A program made the position numbers and the translations under genes. From Haloechinothrix aidingensis (GTDB lineage Bacteria; Actinomycetota; Actinomycetes; Mycobacteriales; Pseudonocardiaceae), in NCBI RefSeq assembly GCF_013450155.1, contig NZ_JACCKD010000002.1, positions 52,531 through 116,530 on the forward strand: a stretch of 64,000 nucleotides of DNA. Reading direction: 5' to 3'. The notes under the pieces were generated by a model, which ran no database searches, was not told the DNA's origin, and worked only from the letters and a program-made list of their open reading frames with translations. Positions 19,695-28,985 of this stretch are shown here, one piece after another; the first letter of the stretch is position 1, and each line of letters opens with the position of its first letter.

Positions 19695-20705
19695 ATGCCG
19701 CCAGCAACCGTCGAGATCCGGCACACGCCCGAACAGGCGGCCGAGGCGCTGCGCGCCGACGCCCTCACCGGACTCACCTCGATGCCGAAGTGGCTGCCCC
19801 CGAAGTGGTTCTACGACGCCAGGGGAAGTGAGCTGTTCGAGGACATCACGCGGCTCCCGGAGTACTACCCGGCCCGTGCCGAACGCGAGATCCTCGCCGA
19901 ACGCGCACCCGAGCTCGCCACCATCACCCGGCCGTCGGCACTGGTCGAGCTCGGGTCCGGATCGTCCGTCAAGACGCGGCTGCTGCTGGACGCGTTCAGC
20001 GCGAACGGGGCACCGGACGGTACCGCCGAGGGGACCCCTTCTGGGATCCTGCGCGAGTTCTTCCCGCTCGATGTCTCCGAGCAGGCCCTTCGCGAGGCCG
20101 CGCACGCCATCGCCGAGACCTATCCGGCGCTTCGGGTACACGGTGTCGTCGACGACTTCACCAGCTCCCTCGCGGTTCCGGACGGATCGCGTCCCCGCCT
20201 GGTCGCGTTCCTCGGCGGCACCATCGGGAACCTGCTGCCCGACGAGCGCGCCAAGTTCCTGACCTCGCTGCGCGACGCGCTCGACGGTGGCGAATGGCTG
20301 CTGCTCGGCACGGATCTGGTCAAGGACCCCGACACCCTGGTTCGTGCCTACGCCGACTCCCAGGGGGTGACCGGGGAGTTCAACCGCAACGTCCTGCACG
20401 TCCTCAACGCCGAGCTGGACGCCGACTTCGTCCCCGAGGCGTTCACACACCGCGCGGTGTGGGACGAGCGCCAGGAATGGATCGAGATGCGGCTGCGTGC
20501 CGAGCGGGACATGCGCGTCACGCTCCCCGGGATCGACCTCGAGATCAACTTCACAGAGGGCGAGGAGATGCGTACCGAGGTCTCCACGAAGTTCCGCCGC
20601 GAGCACGTGGCATCCGAGCTGGTCACGGCCGGATTCGAGCTGCACAGCTGGTGGACGGACGCGGCGGGACGGTTCGCGCTCAGCCTCGCCCGCGCGACTC
20701 CCTGA
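19695..20705 (+). CDS. egtD: L-histidine N-alpha-methyltransferase EgtD
   Basis: 336 residues (mycobacterial EgtD is 321). It trimethylates histidine with SAM to hercynine, the scaffold of ergothioneine and selenoneine. Visible features: the family start LPPKWFYDARGSELFEDITRLPEYYPARAE, of which WFYDARGS and PEYYPARAE are highly conserved; SAM motif ELGSGSSVKTRLLLDA; FLGGTIGNL, containing the histidine-binding Asn; and EEMRTEVSTKF, matching the EgtD Glu-x-Ser substrate contacts. The ATG at 19695 has GAGGTG just upstream; upstream in-frame starts are less likely. It precedes senA by 200 bp in the same direction, so hercynine supply is linked to selenium insertion. No egtA or egtC is visible in the window. 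Confidence 0.95.
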   Translation: MPPATVEIRHTPEQAAEALRADALTGLTSMPKWLPPKWFYDARGSELFEDITRLPEYYPARAEREILAERAPELATITRPSALVELGSGSSVKTRLLLDAFSANGAPDGTAEGTPSGILREFFPLDVSEQALREAAHAIAETYPALRVHGVVDDFTSSLAVPDGSRPRLVAFLGGTIGNLLPDERAKFLTSLRDALDGGEWLLLGTDLVKDPDTLVRAYADSQGVTGEFNRNVLHVLNAELDADFVPEAFTHRAVWDERQEWIEMRLRAERDMRVTLPGIDLEINFTEGEEMRTEVSTKFRREHVASELVTAGFELHSWWTDAAGRFALSLARATP

Positions 20706-20726
20706 GTCACAGCCGACGCCCACGAC

Positions 20727-20742
20727 TGTCAGCGCACTGACA
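20727..20742. promoter_or_regulatory. TGTCAG-CGCA-CTGACA palindrome upstream of senA
   Basis: TGTCAG (20727-20732) and CTGACA (20737-20742) form a perfect 6+4+6 inverted repeat in the egtD-senA gap; a further CTGACA half-site follows near 20785. The spacing fits a dimeric repressor site. The regulator is not identifiable here. It is a candidate selenium-responsive or operon-specific operator. Confidence 0.45.
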
Positions 20743-20831
20743 CAGAATCGCCGGGGTGCGGCAGAGATCAACTCTGATGGACGCTGACAGCCGACGCGTA
20801 CTGTGTTTTCATCGCTGGCGACGCTCATCGT

Positions 20832-20872
20832 CCCCCGGACCGGGGGAACGTAACGGCACCGCCCGGGGGTCA
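20832..20872 (+). promoter_or_regulatory. GC-rich leader with mutually exclusive pairings before senA
   Basis: CCCCCGG (20832-20838) can pair with the adjacent CCGGGGG (20840-20846) or with a second run of five G residues (CCCGGGGG, near 20862-20869) about 15 bases further on. The two pairings exclude each other, as in attenuators or structured leaders, and the element ends some 35 bases before the senA start codon. No known riboswitch family was recognised; function is inference. Confidence 0.3.
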
Positions 20873-20906
20873 CCAGAAGGCCCAGGCGGACGAGTAGGGA
20901 GGCGAT

Positions 20907-22202
20907 GTGAATCACCGCGAGGTGACCGCGGAAGAACTGGCCGGCTGGATATCCGACGCGGCGCACCGCGCCGAGGAGCTCGTCGCTGACCTCACGGACG
21001 ACCAGCTGATCGGTCCACTGCTGCCCACCGTCAACCCGCTGCTCTGGGAGCTGGGGCACATCGCCTGGTTCCAGGAGCTCTTCGTGCTCAGGCGGGCCTG
21101 CGGCAGGGACCCGATCCTGCCGTATGCCGACGCCCTGTACGACTCGGGCGCCATCCCGCACGACACACGCTGGTACCTGGCGCTGCCGTCCCGTGAGGAC
21201 ACACTGTCGTACCTGCGCACCGTGGCCGAGCGGGTCGCCCAGGAGGTGACTGCGGGCGACGCCACCGATGTCGTCCGGCACTTCGCCCGCTACACCGTGC
21301 ACCACCACGACACGCACACCGAGGCGTTCACCTACACCAGGCAGCTCCTCGGCCACCCTGCCCCGCACATGGCCGGGCTCACCGACACCGGTGCGTCGTT
21401 CGACGCCTCCGGCGAGGACTTCGGCGGGGACGTCAAGTTCGCGGGCGGCCGCTTCCTGCTCGGCGCGCAGCGCCGTGACCCGTTCGTCTACGACAACGAG
21501 AAGTGGGCGCATCCGGTCGACGTGGCGCCGTTCGCGATGACGGCCACCGCGGTGACCCAGCGGGAGTTCGCGCAGTTCGTCGAGGACGGCGGCTACCGTA
21601 CACCAGGGCTGTGGTCCGATGGTGGCGCCTGGCTCGCGGCAAGCGGAGCCACGCATCCGGTGTACTGGCGGCCCGGTCCGGACGGCGGCTGGCAACGGCG
21701 CCACTTCGACGCGTGGGTGAATCTGGAACCGGACCTACCGGTCAGCCATATCACCTGGTGGGAGGCCGACGCCTTCTGCCGTTGGGCGGGCAGGCGGCTG
21801 CCGACCGAAGCCGAGTGGGAGTTCGCCGCCACAGCGGGCAGGCAGGACAAGAGTGCCTACCCGTGGGGCTCGCGGCTGCCCGGGCCGGCAGAGGCAGCGA
21901 CCGATTGGCGATCCGGGGGGCCGGTCCCCGTCAGCGCGTGCGGCCAGGGCGACTCCCCTGACGGGTGCAGGCAGATGATCGGCAACGTGTGGGAGTGGAC
22001 GGCCAGCGACTTCGACGCGTACCCGAACTTCGAGCGCGACGCCTACGGGGACAACTCGGAGCAGTTCTTCGGGCAGCGCAAGGTGCTGCGCGGCGGAGGG
22101 TGGCCCACAAGGGGCCGGTACGCCCGGTCCACATTGCGCAACTACTTCACACCGGACCGCGCGGACGTTCTCGCCGGGTTCCGGACCTGTGCGGTTCACT
22201 GA
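20907..22202 (+). CDS. senA: Selenoneine synthase SenA (EgtB-like, DinB/FGE fusion)
   Basis: 431 residues. An N-terminal DinB-like four-helix domain gives iron ligands matching EgtB: H51 in ELGHIAWFQE and the HxxxH pair H133/H137 in VHHHDTHTE. The C-terminal formylglycine-enzyme-like domain runs from about 180 and contains FAMTATAVTQREFAQF, RRLPTEAEWEFAA, GNVWEWTASDF and VLRGGGW. EgtB joins a sulfur donor to hercynine; SenA is its paralogue that uses a selenosugar to make the C-Se bond of selenoneine. The SenA call rests on the adjacent, overlapping senB and the nearby selD; sequence alone would also fit EgtB. A GGGAGG five bases before the GTG sets the start. EgtD, next to it, supplies hercynine. 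Confidence 0.88.
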   Translation: MNHREVTAEELAGWISDAAHRAEELVADLTDDQLIGPLLPTVNPLLWELGHIAWFQELFVLRRACGRDPILPYADALYDSGAIPHDTRWYLALPSREDTLSYLRTVAERVAQEVTAGDATDVVRHFARYTVHHHDTHTEAFTYTRQLLGHPAPHMAGLTDTGASFDASGEDFGGDVKFAGGRFLLGAQRRDPFVYDNEKWAHPVDVAPFAMTATAVTQREFAQFVEDGGYRTPGLWSDGGAWLAASGATHPVYWRPGPDGGWQRRHFDAWVNLEPDLPVSHITWWEADAFCRWAGRRLPTEAEWEFAATAGRQDKSAYPWGSRLPGPAEAATDWRSGGPVPVSACGQGDSPDGCRQMIGNVWEWTASDFDAYPNFERDAYGDNSEQFFGQRKVLRGGGWPTRGRYARSTLRNYFTPDRADVLAGFRTCAVH

Positions 22203-22203
22203 C

Positions 22204-23157
22204 ATGATCCTGCTGGTCAGCCCCGCGGCCCCGAACACCGTCCACGGGAACGGGGTCACCGCCCAGCGCTGGGCCGGCATCCTGCGCGAGCTCGGCCACG
22301 AGGTACGGACCGCGCAGGAGTATCCGGGAGGTCGCTACGCGGCGCTGATCGCGCTGCACGCGCGTAAGAGCGCGGACGCGATCCGCGCGTTCCGCGCCGA
22401 GAACCCGCGGGCACCCATCGTGCTCGCGCTGACCGGCACGGACCTCTACCCGGACCTGCGCAGCACCGGTGTCGAGCCGGAGGTGCTCGACCTGGCGTCC
22501 CGGATCGTCGTGCTGCAGGAGCACGGACGTGACCAGCTCGACAGCGCGCGGCGCGAGCGGTGCCGCGTGATCCTGCAGTCGGTGCCACCCATCGAGCGAC
22601 GCCGGCCCGCGGACGGCATCGTCGAGGTCGCCCAGCTCGCGCACATCCGCGCCGTGAAGGACCCGCTTCGCGCGGCCGCGGCCGTACGGCTGCTGCCACC
22701 GGACTCGCGCGTCCACGTGACCCATGTCGGCTCGGTGCTCGACAGCGACCTCGCGGCCGCGGCGCGCGAGGAGTCGGCGACGAACCCGCGGTACAGCTGG
22801 CTCGGTGAGCGCACCCGGGCACAGGCGCTCGACGTGCTGGCACGCAGCAGGTTACTCGTGCTCGCCTCGCAACACGAGGGTGGCGCGAACGTCATCTCCG
22901 AGGCGATCGCCGCGGGCGTCCCGGTGATCTCCTCTGCCATCCCGGGGTCGATCGGCCTGCTCGGCCATGACTACCCAGGCTACTTCCCCGCAGGCGACAC
23001 CGAGTCCCTCGCTGATCTGCTCGCCGCAGCCGAGTCGGACCGCGACGGCTTCTACACCCAGTTGGCACGCCGGTGCCGGAACCTGCGACACCTCGTCGAC
23101 CCGCGACGCGAGCACGCGGCCTGGGCCGACCTGCTTGCCGAGCTGTCGCTGACGTAA
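22204..23157 (+). CDS. senB: Selenosugar synthase SenB (TIGR04348-type glycosyltransferase)
   Basis: 317 residues with a GT-B fold resembling GT4 glycosyltransferases. Characteristic segments are LLVSPAAPNTVHGNGVTAQR, LIALHARKSA, VLALTGTDLYPDL, RIVVLQEHG and EGGANVISEAIAAGVPVISS (donor-binding region). This is the TIGR04348 group, shown in Variovorax to be SenB, which joins selenophosphate to a UDP-sugar to make a selenosugar used by SenA. The ATG at 22204 follows the senA stop by one base (TGACATG); an in-frame GTG at 22189 is the alternative. Tight coupling to senA strongly supports the pathway assignment for both genes. Confidence 0.9.
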   Translation: MILLVSPAAPNTVHGNGVTAQRWAGILRELGHEVRTAQEYPGGRYAALIALHARKSADAIRAFRAENPRAPIVLALTGTDLYPDLRSTGVEPEVLDLASRIVVLQEHGRDQLDSARRERCRVILQSVPPIERRRPADGIVEVAQLAHIRAVKDPLRAAAAVRLLPPDSRVHVTHVGSVLDSDLAAAAREESATNPRYSWLGERTRAQALDVLARSRLLVLASQHEGGANVISEAIAAGVPVISSAIPGSIGLLGHDYPGYFPAGDTESLADLLAAAESDRDGFYTQLARRCRNLRHLVDPRREHAAWADLLAELSLT

Positions 23158-23177
23158 CCAGAGTGAAAGGAGCCACC

Positions 23178-24095
23178 ATGCGCGACGCGCCCCTCCGGAT
23201 CCTGGCCCTCGCGGCCGTGACCCTCGGTGCCGCGGCTTGCGGGAGCGCTCCGGGCGACCCGAGTGGCCAGGGCGGCGGCAGCGGTGACACGCTCAGCATC
23301 GGCGCGATCCCCGACCAGGACCCCGAGCAGCTGCAACGCACCTACGGCACGCTGGCCGACTACCTCAGCGAGGAGCTCGACGTCGAGGTCGAATACGTAC
23401 CCGTCACCGACTACACCGCGGCTGTCACCGCGTTCCAGCGCGGCGACCTGCAGCTGGCGTTCTTCGGCGGGGTCACGGGCGTGCAGGCACGCGACCAGGT
23501 CGAGGGGGCCGAACCGATCGCGCAGCGCACCATCGACGCGGAGTTCGAGAGCGTGTTCGTCGCCAACACCGACACCGGCCTGGAGCCGTTCGACGATCCG
23601 GCCGGGCTGGCCGAGCTGGCCGGGCACTCGTTCACCTTCGGCAGCGAGTCGTCCACCTCCGGACGCGTCATGCCCCAGCACTTCCTGTCCGAGGCAGGAG
23701 TCTCGGTGGACGAGTTCGCGGGCGAGGTCGGCTTCTCCGGCTCGCACGACACCACGGCCAAGCTCGTCGAGGAAGGCACCTACGAGGTCGGCGCACTCAA
23801 CGCGGCGCTGTGGGACGACCGCGTCGAGGAGGGTGCCGTGGACACCGACCGGGTTCGCGAGGTGTACCGCACGCCCACGTACCACGACTATCACTGGCTG
23901 GCCCGGCCGGAGCTGGACGGGACGTTCGGCGCAGGCTTCACCGACAACCTGACCGAGGCGCTGCTCGACCTCGACGGCAGCGACGAACGCGAGCGGGAGA
24001 TCCTCCAGCTGTTCCAGGCGGAGGGCTTCATCGCAACGGAGGCCGAGAACTACGAGCAGATCGAGAAGGTCGCTCGCGACGTCGGGTTGTTGTGA
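23178..24095 (+). CDS. PhnD/PtxB-type phosphate-phosphonate-like ABC substrate-binding lipoprotein
   Basis: 305 residues with a good GAAAGGAG site before the ATG. A signal peptide ends in lipobox GAAAC (about residue 20). The mature part follows the phosphonate-binding family (TIGR01098-like): LSIGAIPDQDPEQLQRTYG, YVPVTDYTAAVTAFQRGDLQLAFFGG, SFTFGSESSTSGRVMP and VGALNAALWD. Family members bind tetrahedral or pyramidal oxyanions such as phosphonates, phosphite and phosphate. It starts 20 bases after senB and is followed by ATPase and permease genes with overlapping starts, so it belongs to the sen transcription unit. Binding of selenite or another selenium oxyanion is my inference from context. 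Confidence 0.9.
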   Translation: MRDAPLRILALAAVTLGAAACGSAPGDPSGQGGGSGDTLSIGAIPDQDPEQLQRTYGTLADYLSEELDVEVEYVPVTDYTAAVTAFQRGDLQLAFFGGVTGVQARDQVEGAEPIAQRTIDAEFESVFVANTDTGLEPFDDPAGLAELAGHSFTFGSESSTSGRVMPQHFLSEAGVSVDEFAGEVGFSGSHDTTAKLVEEGTYEVGALNAALWDDRVEEGAVDTDRVREVYRTPTYHDYHWLARPELDGTFGAGFTDNLTEALLDLDGSDEREREILQLFQAEGFIATEAENYEQIEKVARDVGLL

Positions 24096-24958
24096 TCGCC
24101 ATGGCGCGGGACGCGGAGCACGACAGGCAGCGCGATCGTAGGGCCGAGCAGGCCACGGCACGCGAGGGATCCCGGCCGCGGGTCGGCGATCGGGACGACG
24201 ACGTCGTTTTCGAGCTCCGGGATGTCAGCGTCCGGCTCGGCCAGGTCGAAGCCTTGTCCGGTGTGGACCTCGTGGTGCGTTCCGGGGAACGGGTGGCGAT
24301 CATCGGGCCGAGCGGCGCGGGCAAGACCACGCTGATCAGCCTGCTGAACGGCACCACGACGGCCACGCGCGGTGAGGTGCGGGCGCTCGGCTGCCCCTAC
24401 GCGCGCGCCTCGGCCAGGAACATCCGCGCTACCCAGCGACGCATCGGTACGATCCACCAGCGGTTCGATGTCGTGGCCCAGCTGCGCACGGTGCACAACG
24501 TGAACGCGGGCAGGCTCGGTACGTGGCCGTTCTGGAAGGCGGCGCTGTCTCTCGTCTTGCCGAGGGATGTGCCGCGCGTGCGTGAGGCGCTCGCGCAGGT
24601 CGGTATCCGGGACAAACTGCACGAGCGCACCGGTGACCTCTCCGGCGGGGAGCAGCAGCGTGTCGCCATCGCCAGGGTCCTCGTGCAACAGCCCGACGCC
24701 ATCCTCGCCGACGAGCCGGTCGCCAGCCTCGACCCGACCCGGGGGTTGGAGATCATGAAGCTGCTCCTGGACATCAGCGCCGAGTCGGAGACCGCGCTGC
24801 TGGCCAGCCTGCACGACGTGGACATGGCGCTGGACAAGTTCGAGCGCGTGGTCGGCCTGCGGGACGGCAGGATCGTGTTCGACAAGCGCAGGGAGAACCT
24901 GCACGACGACGAGGTCCGTGCGCTCTACACCATCGACCAGGCACCGGGGTCGCCATGA
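24092..24958 (+). CDS. PhnC-type ABC transporter ATP-binding protein
   Basis: 288 residues from a GTG overlapping the stop codon of the binding-protein gene; an ATG three codons later is the alternative. A charged N-terminal extension of about 35 residues precedes the ATPase core. Walker A is GPSGAGKTT, the signature is LSGGEQQRVAIARVL, and Walker B is AILADEPVASLDP, followed by the His switch in LLASLHDVDMAL. It resembles PhnC, the ATPase of phosphonate/phosphite importers. It overlaps the permease gene by an ATGA. Energises import of the ligand bound by the preceding lipoprotein. Confidence 0.92.
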   Translation: MIAMARDAEHDRQRDRRAEQATAREGSRPRVGDRDDDVVFELRDVSVRLGQVEALSGVDLVVRSGERVAIIGPSGAGKTTLISLLNGTTTATRGEVRALGCPYARASARNIRATQRRIGTIHQRFDVVAQLRTVHNVNAGRLGTWPFWKAALSLVLPRDVPRVREALAQVGIRDKLHERTGDLSGGEQQRVAIARVLVQQPDAILADEPVASLDPTRGLEIMKLLLDISAESETALLASLHDVDMALDKFERVVGLRDGRIVFDKRRENLHDDEVRALYTIDQAPGSP

Positions 24959-26664
24959 CAGTGTCGCTGCGCGCGCTCGACGGGGTCGAGGAGACGTCGA
25001 CTCCCGCTCCGGCCGGGCGGAGCGGCGGCACCCGGCGCTCGCGCCAGCGGTGGTTGTGGGCACTGGCGGCCGTGGCCGTGACCGGCGCCTCGCTTGTGGC
25101 CGCCGGGATCGGCGAGCGGGACGTGCTCCGTGCCGAGGGGATCCCCGCGTTCCTCGAGTTCTTCCGCGCGGCGGGTGCCCCCCGGCTCGACGGTGAGTTC
25201 CTGGCACTGACCGGGACGGCCGCGCTGACCACCCTGGCGTACGCGGTACTCGGCACCGCACTCAGCCTGGTGATCGGCATCGTCGGTGGCGTGCTGACCT
25301 CGCAGACATGGTGGTCACTCGGCCGCCGTGCACGCGGCAGGCGCGGCACGGCCTCCTGGATGCTGGCACGGACGGTGCTCGTGGTGCCCCGCGGTATCCA
25401 CGAGGTGGTCTGGGGCCTGATCTTCCTGATCGTGTTCGGGCTCGACCCGATCGTGGCGGTACTGGCCATCGGTATCCCGTTCGGAGCTGTCACGGCCAAG
25501 GTGTTCTCCGAGCTGCTGGACGAGACCGCGCGGCAGCCGTACTCGGCCCTGCTGGCAGGCGGCGCGAGCCGGAGCGCGGCGATGATCTACGGCCTGCTGC
25601 CACCCGCGCTGTCCGACCTGCTCTCCTACGGCTTCTACCGTTTCGAGTGCGCCATCCGCAGCGCAGCCGTGCTCGGCCTGGTGGGCGCCGGTGGCCTGGG
25701 TTTCCAGCTCTCGTTGAGCTTCCAGAGCCTGCACTACGACGAGATATGGACGCTGCTCTACGCACTGATCGCACTCAGCGTCGCAGCGGACTTCTGGAGC
25801 TCGCGGGTACGGGCCAGGCGGAGCGCCCGCGCCGACGGCACGCAGCGGACCAGGCGCGGAGCCGACCCGGTTCTCATGGGCTCAGGGCTACTCGGCATCG
25901 CCCTGATCGTCCTGTCCGTGTGGTGGATCGGGCTGGATGTCGCCGTGCTGTGGAGCGGCGAGACCTGGGAACACACCCGGCGGCTGCTCGGCGACGCATG
26001 GCCGCCCTCCCTGGCGGGCGACGGCCTGTCCGGGCTGGTGTGGCTCAGCGCGGTCACGCTCGCCATCTCGATCCTGGCCATGGTGATCGGCTTCTGCGGG
26101 GCAGCGCTGTTCGCCTTCCCCGCGGCGAACCTTCCTCGCGGCAGCTACCACACGCGGCGTCATGTCCTCTCGCGCGCAGCACGCCTGGTGCTGTTCGCGG
26201 TGAGCAGGTTGATCCTCGTGGTGCTGCGGGCCATCCCGCCACCGGTGTGGGCACTGCTGTTCCTGTTCGTCCTCTATCCAGGGATCCTGCCGGGCGCGCT
26301 GGCACTCGGCGTCTACACCGTCGGCGTGCTCGGCCGCCTGATGGCCGAGTCGGCGGAGAACCTCGACGTCCGGCCGCTGCGCGCGCTGCGCGCCCACGGA
26401 GCGTCTGCGGCGCAGGTCTTCTGCTACGGCGTGGTACCAGCCGCGACGCCTCGCTTCGCCGCCTACGGTCTCTACCGGTGGGAGGTCACCATCCGGGAGA
26501 CCGTGGTCGTCGGCGTCGTCGGGGCCGGCGGGCTCGGTTACGCGCTGGCGCAACAGCTGAGCGGTTTCGACTACGGCGCCGCGCTGACCACGCTCGTCAC
26601 GCTGATCCTGCTGACCCTGGCCGTGGACTTCATCAGCGCAGCCGTCCGCCGTACCGTGCGCTGA
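24955..26664 (+). CDS. PhnE-type ABC permease, two permease domains fused in one chain
   Basis: 569 residues, about twice the length of a single PhnE. Two homologous halves each contain membrane helices and an EAA-like cytoplasmic loop ending in a glycine-rich motif: first half FSELLDETARQPYSALLAGGAS then GLVGAGGLGFQL; second half LMAESAENLDVRPLRALRAHGAS then GVVGAGGLGYAL. The joined halves would make a complete membrane channel without a second subunit. Start coupled by ATGA to the ATPase gene. In phosphonate systems the two permeases are usually separate or one is used as a homodimer. Here the fusion with the sen genes suggests a dedicated transporter. Confidence 0.92.
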   Translation: MTVSLRALDGVEETSTPAPAGRSGGTRRSRQRWLWALAAVAVTGASLVAAGIGERDVLRAEGIPAFLEFFRAAGAPRLDGEFLALTGTAALTTLAYAVLGTALSLVIGIVGGVLTSQTWWSLGRRARGRRGTASWMLARTVLVVPRGIHEVVWGLIFLIVFGLDPIVAVLAIGIPFGAVTAKVFSELLDETARQPYSALLAGGASRSAAMIYGLLPPALSDLLSYGFYRFECAIRSAAVLGLVGAGGLGFQLSLSFQSLHYDEIWTLLYALIALSVAADFWSSRVRARRSARADGTQRTRRGADPVLMGSGLLGIALIVLSVWWIGLDVAVLWSGETWEHTRRLLGDAWPPSLAGDGLSGLVWLSAVTLAISILAMVIGFCGAALFAFPAANLPRGSYHTRRHVLSRAARLVLFAVSRLILVVLRAIPPPVWALLFLFVLYPGILPGALALGVYTVGVLGRLMAESAENLDVRPLRALRAHGASAAQVFCYGVVPAATPRFAAYGLYRWEVTIRETVVVGVVGAGGLGYALAQQLSGFDYGAALTTLVTLILLTLAVDFISAAVRRTVR

Positions 26665-26667
26665 CGC

Positions 26668-26712
26668 TGACGGACGCTTTCAGTCCGGCTCGTGGACCGA
26701 AAGCGTCCGTCA
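26668..26712. terminator. Bidirectional 14-bp hairpin between the permease gene and selD
   Basis: TGACGGACGCTTTC (26668-26681) pairs perfectly with GAAAGCGTCCGTCA (26699-26712); the loop has an additional GTCC/GGAC pair. It lies directly between converging stop codons. A further GAAAGCGTCATTCA at about 26730 repeats one arm, so the element may belong to a dispersed repeat family as well as acting as a terminator. Confidence 0.75.
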
Positions 26713-26739
26713 ACCACCCGTATGGAGTGAAAGCGTCAT

Positions 26740-27807
26740 TCAGCGCACAACGGTGACGTGGCCGGGAGTGCCTGCCGCCGCCCGGCCGATCACGGCAGCG
26801 GGGAGGTTCTTGCCACGCAGCTCGGCGACGACGGCCGCGCTGTCCGTCCCGGAGGGAACCGCGATCAGCATGCCGCCGGAGGTCTGGGCGTCGTGCAACA
26901 ACACCGCCATCTCCTTGTCGACGTCGTCGGCGACGCTGACCACGGAGCTGAGGTGGTCGGTGTTGGCCTTGGTGCCGCCCGGAACGAAGCCCGCGCGGAT
27001 CGCGTCGACCGCGCCCGGCAGGACGGGGACGGCAGCGGAGTCGATCTCGGCGGCGACGCCGCTGGCACGCGCCATCCGGTGCAGGTGGCCGAGCAGGCCG
27101 AAGCCGGTCACGTCGGTGGCCGCGCGCGCCCCCGCGCTCGAGGCGATCGCGCCGGCGTCGGCGTTGAGCGTGGTCATCGAGTCGACGGCGCCGTCGATCC
27201 ACTCCTGGCTGGCGCCTCCCGCCTTGATCGACGTGGCGATAACCCCGGTGCCCAGCGCCTTGGTGAGCACAAGCTCATCACCGGCCCGCAGCTGGTCGAT
27301 CTGGAAGAGCTGGTCCGGATGGGCCATGCCGACGACGGCCATCCCGTACTTGGGAACGGCATCGTCGATGGTATGCCCGCCGCCGATGAAGCAGCCCGCC
27401 TCACGCGCCACGTCGGCACCCCCGCGCAGCACGTCGGACAGCATCTCCATGGGCACATCGTTGCCCGGCCACGCGGTGAGGTTGACCGCGATGATCGGCC
27501 GCCCGCCCATCGCGTACACATCGGACAGGGCGTTGGCCGCCGCGATCCGGCCCCAGTCGTAGGCATCGTCCACGATCGGGGTGAAGAAGTCGGTGGTCAG
27601 GATCAGGGCGCGGTCGTCGTCGAGGCGATAGACCGCGGCGTCGTCGCCCTCTGAGGCCCCGACCAGCATCTCGCCGGTGGCCGACTCGAGGTTCGCACCG
27701 AGCGAGGAGAACATGCTCTCCAGCTTGGCCAACGGAAGCTTGCACGCGCAGCCGGCCCCCTGGGACAGCGAGGTCAGCTTCATGGCCGGCTCAGTGGAGG
27801 AGTTCAT
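26740..27807 (-). CDS. selD: Selenide, water dikinase SelD (selenophosphate synthetase)
   Basis: 355 residues. Converts selenide and ATP to selenophosphate, AMP and phosphate. The catalytic motif GAGCACK gives Cys20 and Lys23, equal to Cys17/Lys20 of E. coli SelD, so the Cys is a normal codon and not selenocysteine. Other family segments are DDAAVYRLDDD, TTDFFTPIVDDAYDWGRIAAANALSD, YAMGGRP, GGHTIDD and the C-terminal TSGGMLIAV. The ATG at 27807 has GGGAGA eight bases upstream; upstream in-frame starts lack support. It converges on the transporter gene and completes the selenoneine pathway by feeding SenB. No selA, selB or tRNA-Sec is seen in the window, so its only visible partner is the sen pathway. 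Confidence 0.96.
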   Translation of the reverse strand: MNSSTEPAMKLTSLSQGAGCACKLPLAKLESMFSSLGANLESATGEMLVGASEGDDAAVYRLDDDRALILTTDFFTPIVDDAYDWGRIAAANALSDVYAMGGRPIIAVNLTAWPGNDVPMEMLSDVLRGGADVAREAGCFIGGGHTIDDAVPKYGMAVVGMAHPDQLFQIDQLRAGDELVLTKALGTGVIATSIKAGGASQEWIDGAVDSMTTLNADAGAIASSAGARAATDVTGFGLLGHLHRMARASGVAAEIDSAAVPVLPGAVDAIRAGFVPGGTKANTDHLSSVVSVADDVDKEMAVLLHDAQTSGGMLIAVPSGTDSAAVVAELRGKNLPAAVIGRAAAGTPGHVTVVR

Positions 27808-28096
27808 GCTGGCATTCTCCCGACGTACTCGGCGAACTGGATGGCTGCACAGCGACGCTAGCAGTGCGATCACCGATCATGTAAGGGTGCGGGCGGGCGA
27901 TCAACATCATCATCACCACCGGCAGCAGGGTCCACTGGCGCTCCGGTACGTCTCGTGCTGCTCACCGCGACATCGGGGTCGCAGCGGCCCGGACGGCGTG
28001 GCGGCAACGAGCAGCGGGCTCGTGAGCGGCTGCGGGTGGGAGGCGGCTAGGGCGTGTCTCCAAAGCTGGTGCTGGTGGTTGGGTGATGCTGGCGGG

Positions 28097-28492
28097 ATGA
28101 GTCGTCAGAAGGTTTTGTCCGATGTGCAGTGGGGTGCGGTCGAGGCGTTACTGCCGCGGCAGCGGCCGGTGACGGGGCGTCCTCGTCGTGATCATCGACA
28201 AGTAGTCGAAGGCATCATCTACCGGTACCGGTGCGGCATCGCCTGGAGAGATCTGCCCGACGAGTTCGGCCCGTGGCAGACGGTGTGGAAGCGTCACCGT
28301 GCCTGGGCTGCCGACGGCACCTGGGACAGGGTCCTGGATGCCCTGCTGGTGCGTGCCGATGCGCAGGGGCAGCTGGACTGGTCGGTGGCGGTCGATTCCA
28401 CGATCTGCCGCGCTCATCAGCACGGCGCCACCCTGCCGCGGGGCACAGGGGGCCCGGTCGAATCACACGCATCCGCGTGCCGAGCCGGCTGA
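28097..28492 (+). CDS. IS5-family transposase, first reading frame
   Basis: 131 residues: SRQKVLSDVQWGAVEALLPR, GIIYRYRCGIAWRDLP and WSVAVDSTICRAHQHG. The last contains the first catalytic Asp of the DDE domain (DST). The frame ends just after SACRAG, where related single-chain transposases continue EPADHALGRSRGG. That continuation lies in the second frame, one base ahead. Either a programmed frameshift joins the two parts or a single indel has inactivated the gene. Confidence 0.85.
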   Translation: MSRQKVLSDVQWGAVEALLPRQRPVTGRPRRDHRQVVEGIIYRYRCGIAWRDLPDEFGPWQTVWKRHRAWAADGTWDRVLDALLVRADAQGQLDWSVAVDSTICRAHQHGATLPRGTGGPVESHASACRAG

Positions 28493-28493
28493 T

Positions 28494-28985
28494 CACGCCC
28501 TGGGTCGCTCGCGGGGCGGCCTGTCCACCAAGATCCATCAACTGGTCGACGGGCACGGGCTGCCGCTGGTGATCCTGTGCGGGCCGGGCCAGGGCGGCGA
28601 CTCACCGATGCTGGCCCCGTTGCTCGCGGCACTACGCATCGCCCGTGACGGCCCCGGCAGGGCACGCACCCGGCCGGAGAGGCTGCTCGGCGACAAGGCC
28701 TATTCCTCCCGCGCCACCCGGGCCGAACTACGGCGCCGGGGCATCCCGGCAGTGATCCCCGAGCCGCGTGACCAGCAGCAGCACCGCCGCAACCGCGGAT
28801 CACGCGGAGGACGACCCGTGACCCTGCAGGTCGCTGCCTACCGCGGCCGCAACGTCATCGAGCGCGGCTACAGCGACCTCAAGCAGTGGCGCGGCCTGGC
28901 GACGCGCTACGACAAACTCGCCCTCACCTACCGGGCCGGAGCCGTCCTACGCGCCATCACCCAGTGGCTCAAACACATCCTTTAG
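28494..28985 (+). CDS. IS5-family transposase, second reading frame (C-terminal DDE part)
   Basis: The meaningful part begins about 28490 with ADHALGRSRGGLSTKIHQLV and runs to the TAG inside the right inverted repeat. It includes LLGDKAYSSRATRAELRRRG with the second Asp and VIERGYSDLKQWRGLATRYDK with the catalytic Glu, so the DDE triad is complete across both frames. The frame is open upstream to about 28299, but that part is antisense to sense of frame one. Joining needs a +1 (or -2) shift near the end of the first frame. No classical slippery heptamer is evident. Confidence 0.75.
   Translation, partial: HALGRSRGGLSTKIHQLVDGHGLPLVILCGPGQGGDSPMLAPLLAALRIARDGPGRARTRPERLLGDKAYSSRATRAELRRRGIPAVIPEPRDQQQHRRNRGSRGGRPVTLQVAAYRGRNVIERGYSDLKQWRGLATRYDKLALTYRAGAVLRAITQWLKHIL

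Follow-up and report, generated by a model that had tools for sequence, protein, structure and literature searches.

A predicted locus for selenoneine biosynthesis and its proposed selenium supply, including a PhnD1-type importer, in the actinomycete Haloechinothrix aidingensis

Selenoneine is a known antioxidant that contains selenium. Its gene cluster in Variovorax paradoxus consists of senA, senB and senC/selD (Kayrouz 2022, as relayed in PMC9814287 and PMC10702425). Two other kinds of iron enzyme have to be compared with SenA: OvsA (PDB 8u41, 8u42 and 8ux5) and EgtB, which has been solved as a type I enzyme (4x8b) and as a Cabther-type enzyme (6o6l). The product of OvsA is ovoselenol, a selenohistidine, and Cabther-type EgtB uses cysteine directly. 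On the side of uptake, the closest described system is PhnD1CE of marine picocyanobacteria. The solved binding proteins of this kind bind phosphite tightly and have been termed phosphate or phosphite transporters (PMC5700983, PMC10284923); for Prochlorococcus PhnD the Kd is 0.051 uM for phosphite and 182 uM for phosphate, a difference of ~3,500-fold (PMC5700983). Picocyanobacterial strains cannot grow on phosphite, and the role of PhnD1 was left open (PMC10284923). The string 'selen' is absent from the main texts of PMC5700983 and PMC10284923, and picocyanobacteria have been reported to carry selD and ybbB (PMC1273633).

We analysed a stretch of 64,000 nucleotides of the Haloechinothrix aidingensis genome (contig NZ_JACCKD010000002.1), which we call the window. 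A sequence-only reading had placed egtD, an EgtB-like gene, a glycosyltransferase gene, a three-gene importer and selD at positions 19695-27807, and all of them were found there as seven genes, six on the plus strand and selD on the minus strand (Table 1). Like the V. paradoxus cluster, the locus has SenA, SenB and a selenophosphate synthetase, and the predicted chemistry is the same; it differs by the addition of egtD and the importer and by a convergent selD. We put the probability that this is a locus for selenoneine synthesis with its own selenium supply, including an importer, and with selenoneine as the predicted product, at roughly 0.84. Six of the seven genes exceed curated family cut-offs, the exception being the PhnC-like ATPase, and five (SenA, TIGR04348, EgtD, SelD and TIGR04553) pass equivalog or hypothetical-equivalog models for the proposed function. 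What we computed here is the identity, clade, copy number, conservation and context of the genes; the enzyme chemistry comes from the literature.

Table 1. Features of the predicted selenoneine locus (window coordinates)
Feature	Position	Strand	Evidence
egtD, L-histidine N-alpha-trimethyltransferase, giving hercynine	19695..20705	+	TIGR03438 355 bits > 291
spacer of 201 bp between egtD and senA; probable promoter region of senA	20706..20906	+	function inferred from sequence
senA, predicted selenoneine synthase (non-haem iron; DinB + FGE-sulfatase domains)	20907..22202	+	NF041186 478 > 420
senB, predicted selenosugar synthase (GT-B glycosyltransferase)	22189..23157	+	TIGR04348 362 > 300
substrate-binding lipoprotein of PhnD1/TIGR04553-type importer; proposed selenite binder	23178..24095	+	TIGR04553 373 > 250
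PhnC-like ABC transporter ATPase	24095..24958	+	TIGR02315 224 bits, under phosphonate-specific cut-off 266
ABC permease; a single protein with two fused PhnE units	24955..26664	+	TIGR01097 334 > 217, two stretches
hairpin in convergent gap between operon and selD; probable bidirectional terminator	26669..26711	.	fold
selD, selenophosphate synthetase with Cys	26740..27807	-	TIGR00476 372 > 125

The five genes from senA through the permease overlap or lie about 20 bp apart, with overlaps of 14 nt between senA and senB and 4 nt between the ATPase and permease genes; the ATPase may instead start at the ATG at 24107. Because a gap of about 200 bp precedes senA, egtD may be a separate transcription unit. 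This intergenic region is highly conserved in the second genome of the genus, including an inverted repeat, TGTCAGCGCACTGACA, that lies upstream of senA together with a further CTGACAG (20727-20795) and is a possible operator for some regulator. No match to the sigma-70 consensus was found in the region, and consensus scans of the locus for promoters and terminators gave nothing clearly above shuffled sequences. Its single-strand fold is unexceptional (z -1.1), and we therefore make no claim of a structured RNA. A strong hairpin separates selD from the convergent plus-strand genes: the region 26655-26745 folds at -48 kcal/mol (z -6.5) and contains the repeat GACGCTTTCAGTCC, of which the congener keeps a shorter form. 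In the congener the entire block is present in the same surroundings, with 93-97% identity. In this comparison dN/dS was 0.10-0.16 for all seven genes, similar to the flanking clpB, which indicates that the locus genes are maintained. Just past selD, at 28090-28985, two overlapping ORFs resemble an IS5-type transposase; they were not seen at the corresponding place in the congener.

The EgtB-like protein passes the SenA equivalog model. Its three histidine ligands, which the sequence-only reading had noticed, are H51, H133 and H137 (HxxxHxE) in an alignment with EgtB and SenA, and it carries a hercynine-type RN[FY] segment (R411-N412-Y413). Among solved enzymes its best relative is OvsA (45% identity, E 3e-99), followed at E 2e-63 by Variovorax SenA, which lacks part of the domain and sits on a long branch in the tree; these two features account for the low score of the latter. 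The window SenA is on another branch than the Variovorax enzyme and has a complete domain, shares 42% identity with it over the alignable part, and differs at two pocket residues. Because OvsA ranked above Variovorax SenA, we tested the phylogenetic placement of the window protein, using 80 loci from a scan of species genomes, EgtB from relatives and the solved enzymes. The tree contained an EgtB clade (97) and an OvsA clade (100), and the window protein fell within an Actinomycetota SenA clade (SH-aLRT 100).

The motifs agree with this placement. In the alignment, type I EgtB has HEQQH and RNWD, OvsA has HQNMH, DMYPFMST and RQAY, and most SenA proteins have HEDMH, Y-E/D-Y-S and RN[FY][FY]. 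The window protein has HHDTH, DAYGDNSE (YGDNS) and RNYF, as well as the SenA-type HDxRW. Two substrate-pocket changes characterize the Actinomycetota SenA clade: Met to Thr, Val or Ala at window position 136, and Tyr to Asn at position 383. They occur jointly in the window and in L023, L025, L026, L029, L082, L135 and L137, and not together in other SenA proteins. From their position, T136 and N383 could shift substrate preference. However, within this clade egtD lies near senA in the genus of the window, in L029 and in L137, which favours hercynine as the substrate despite the pocket changes.

Could the iron enzyme instead be a diverged EgtB that makes ergothioneine, with the selenium genes as chance neighbours? 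The fold and the iron ligands are shared, egtD is adjacent, and the EgtB model TIGR03440 gives the protein 299 bits. This score is below the cut-off of 360, however, whereas the SenA cut-off is exceeded, and the protein lies outside the EgtB clade with different motifs; the EgtB assignment was rejected on these grounds. In addition, senB accompanies 61 of 71 related SenA loci, and the genome has its own EgtB at C1:609.5 kb (G000:C1:609518-610729, corresponding to L004:9471-10742), which is close to the Cabther-type enzyme 6o6l (E 1e-152). Six-frame family searches of the genome, on which all our genome-wide statements rest, did not find egtA or egtC. The sequence-only reading had expected the opposite picture, an EgtB-clade protein with egtA and egtC elsewhere, if it was wrong. 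We consider a diverged EgtB extremely improbable.

The second possibility is an OvsA-like enzyme whose product is ovoselenol or a different selenohistidine instead of selenoneine. OvsA is the best PDB match, with the same domains and in the same enzyme superfamily, and the changed residues T136 and N383 would be compatible with a different product. Against this, OvsA forms its own clade away from the window protein, the HQNMH and DMYPFMST motifs are absent, and RQAY, which every OvsA-clade enzyme has, is replaced by RN-Y-F in the window protein. Moreover, egtD is adjacent to senA in the window but occurs in none of the 13 OvsA-type loci. Thus, the OvsA assignment was also rejected, and we regard this alternative as very unlikely. 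Judged by its sequence, the EgtB-like protein is SenA, neither EgtB nor OvsA. Two observations concern OvsA itself. The entry 8ux5 appears to be an engineered OvsA, because at three positions (M to Y, Q to N, A to F) it departs from all of the natural OvsA-type sequences in our set. In a gammaproteobacterial contig (L072:75-3990), SenA-type and OvsA-type genes lie side by side in convergent orientation, which suggests that this organism may make both selenohistidine products.

The other biosynthetic genes were also as the sequence-only reading had named them. SenB matches the PDB SenB at E 2e-53, and in the alignment it retains the catalytic residues K158, N20, T23 and E231 described for the characterised SenB (PMC10891094). 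EgtD matches 4uy5 at E 1.6e-92. SelD matches 3u0o at E 2.5e-73 and keeps the GCxCK active-site segment with its Cys and Lys (GAGCACK in the window, GAGCGCK in 3u0o), intact as previously read. Together with the family scores, the tree and the motifs, these identities make selenoneine the most likely product, as had been suggested, and the strain very probably makes it with the known enzyme set. We have high confidence that this locus adds to an already known type of pathway; to this pathway it adds an actinomycete, along with a distinct SenA clade of the Actinomycetota in which the pocket is modified.

The set had been called self-contained, and here our results differ. The window egtD is the only copy in the genome, and the window selD is the only hit above the cut-off, with no second selD found. 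A genome-wide search, which the sequence-only reading had left to be done, located a separate egtB as well as selA and selB, the last two together with tRNA-Sec at C1:550 kb. The cysteine-type EgtB fits the failure to find egtA and egtC, and ergothioneine would then be made by a minimal route that relies on egtD of the sen locus. As egtD and selD are single-copy and the genome encodes both a selenocysteine system and an EgtB of the cysteine type, one hercynine pool would supply ergothioneine and selenoneine, and one selenophosphate pool would supply selenocysteine and selenoneine. The genome thus illustrates how a single egtD and a single selD could each serve two products. In L004, which includes the separate EgtB gene, a helix-turn-helix domain is fused with a C-terminal half that resembles FGE/EgtB, and the matched region contains a stop codon (L004:4018-4917); a UvrD-like helicase gene next to one for an OLD-type ATPase (L004:5119-8446) recalls, by eye, a Gabija-like defence pair.

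Based on these genes, we propose the following pathway, in which we infer the product in this strain, the cargo of the importer and the reduction step. The PhnDCE-type importer would take up selenium as an oxyanion, of which selenite (HSeO3-) is the most likely. No selenite-reduction gene was recognised within the locus, a further respect in which it is not self-contained; cellular thiols or reductases encoded elsewhere would reduce the oxyanion to selenide. SelD would convert selenide and ATP to selenophosphate, from which SenB would form a selenosugar with a UDP-sugar, while EgtD would trimethylate histidine to hercynine. SenA, with iron and O2, would then join the selenium of the selenosugar to C2 of the hercynine imidazole; elimination of the selenoxide followed by reduction would give selenoneine.

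We believe that the importer matters more than the biosynthetic part, because the same subfamily has been studied as a phosphite binder and its role is open in picocyanobacteria. A literature search found no demonstrated importer for a selenoneine pathway. The binding protein passes the TIGR04553 cut-off by 123 bits; NCBIfam names this family "putative selenate SBP", a hypothetical-equivalog label. Among solved proteins it is closest to Synechococcus PhnD1 (7s6g, 55% identity, E 1.7e-94) and Prochlorococcus PhnD (5lq5). It has all 11 pocket residues of PhnD1 (D11, Y44, T65, S123-S126, H156, N174, D203 and Y204; list from PMC10284923) unchanged, and 20 relatives also keep most of them. The two systems belong to the same subfamily, but the window importer lies in a selenium operon, whereas the picocyanobacterial one lies by tesA and its cargo is disputed. 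We also scanned viral contigs for the binding protein, with no match.

This similarity raises the possibility that the importer carries phosphite, phosphonate or phosphate and is here by chance. The submicromolar phosphite affinity of Prochlorococcus PhnD, the conservation of every pocket residue, and the matches of the importer proteins to PhnE and general PhnD-type models all speak for a phosphorus cargo. Yet the cut-offs of the phosphonate-transporter equivalogs are missed, by PhnD (122 vs 261 bits) as well as by PhnC, and relatives of the importer stand repeatedly beside several uses of selenium in several phyla. Of 71 SenA loci, 11 (from Actinomycetota, Gemmatimonadota and Pseudomonadota) have the importer next to sen genes, as do L135 and L137. 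The Sphaerotilus importer genes stand in a single string together with mnmH (selenouridine synthase) and selD, with no sen genes there. In Paracoccus the importer's neighbour is a formate dehydrogenase operon that includes selA; in the relative L138 the formate dehydrogenase alpha subunit has an in-frame UGA and a SECIS_3 match. A partial copy at a contig end in Halomonas (L101) adjoins an OvsA-type locus, and several importer loci have no adjoining selenium gene. Among Actinomycetota, selD is present in 10 of 10 genomes with TIGR04553 compared with a background of 242/396 (p 0.007, uncorrected for ancestry), and senB in 4 of 10 compared with 20/396 (p 0.0008, likewise uncorrected). In the importer neighbourhoods that we inspected, partly by eye, we recognised no gene for phosphite or phosphonate catabolism. 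We therefore consider a phosphorus transporter present by chance unlikely. Because relatives of the importer adjoin sen genes, mnmH-selD and a selenocysteine formate dehydrogenase, selenium is the likely cargo.

Which oxyanion is imported is a separate question. Selenate has in its favour the name of the NCBI family. In contrast, the conserved pocket prefers pyramidal phosphite to tetrahedral phosphate by ~3,500-fold, which argues for selenite, and an Asp that faces a protonated oxygen would suit HSeO3- better than selenate, which is tetrahedral and unprotonated at neutral pH. The second pKa, that of HSeO3-, is ~8.3. By this analogy the cargo is most likely selenite (HSeO3-), and we regard selenate as rather unlikely. 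A literature search found no measurement of selenite or selenate binding for PhnD1-type proteins. More tentatively, and with somewhat less than even odds, we suggest that TIGR04553/PhnD1-type importers as a group, including Prochlorococcus and Synechococcus PhnD1CE, may be selenite importers, and that their phosphite binding may reflect mimicry of HSeO3- by HPO3H-. If true, this would explain why the importer is retained in cells that are unable to use phosphite. The selenite hypothesis thus makes the PhnD1 paradox testable.

The combination of genes had also been thought unusual. The same five parts occur together in L024, L035 (Gemmatimonadaceae), a gammaproteobacterium (L051), a member of the Ectothiorhodospiraceae (L081) and a distant actinobacterium (L137), so the set is uncommon but not unique. 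In 71 SenA-type loci with flanks, senB is present in 61, selD in 21, egtD in 12 and the importer in 11; these counts are lower bounds, as the sample was ranked by similarity and the contigs are of uneven length. Closer to the window, senB is found in 6 of 60 near relatives and in 20 of 396 genomes of the phylum. One genome (G004) has a senA-senB-importer-selD block without egtD in different surroundings. In another relative (G016:C51, L027) the selenosugar synthase gene senB is an orphan, since no senA lies within ~10 kb of it. Finally, the 25-kb plasmid pMPOP01 of Methylorubrum populi (NC_010727, L143) carries senA and senB flanked by IS elements; with neither selD nor egtD annotated in the region shown, this is a mobile, partial sen set.
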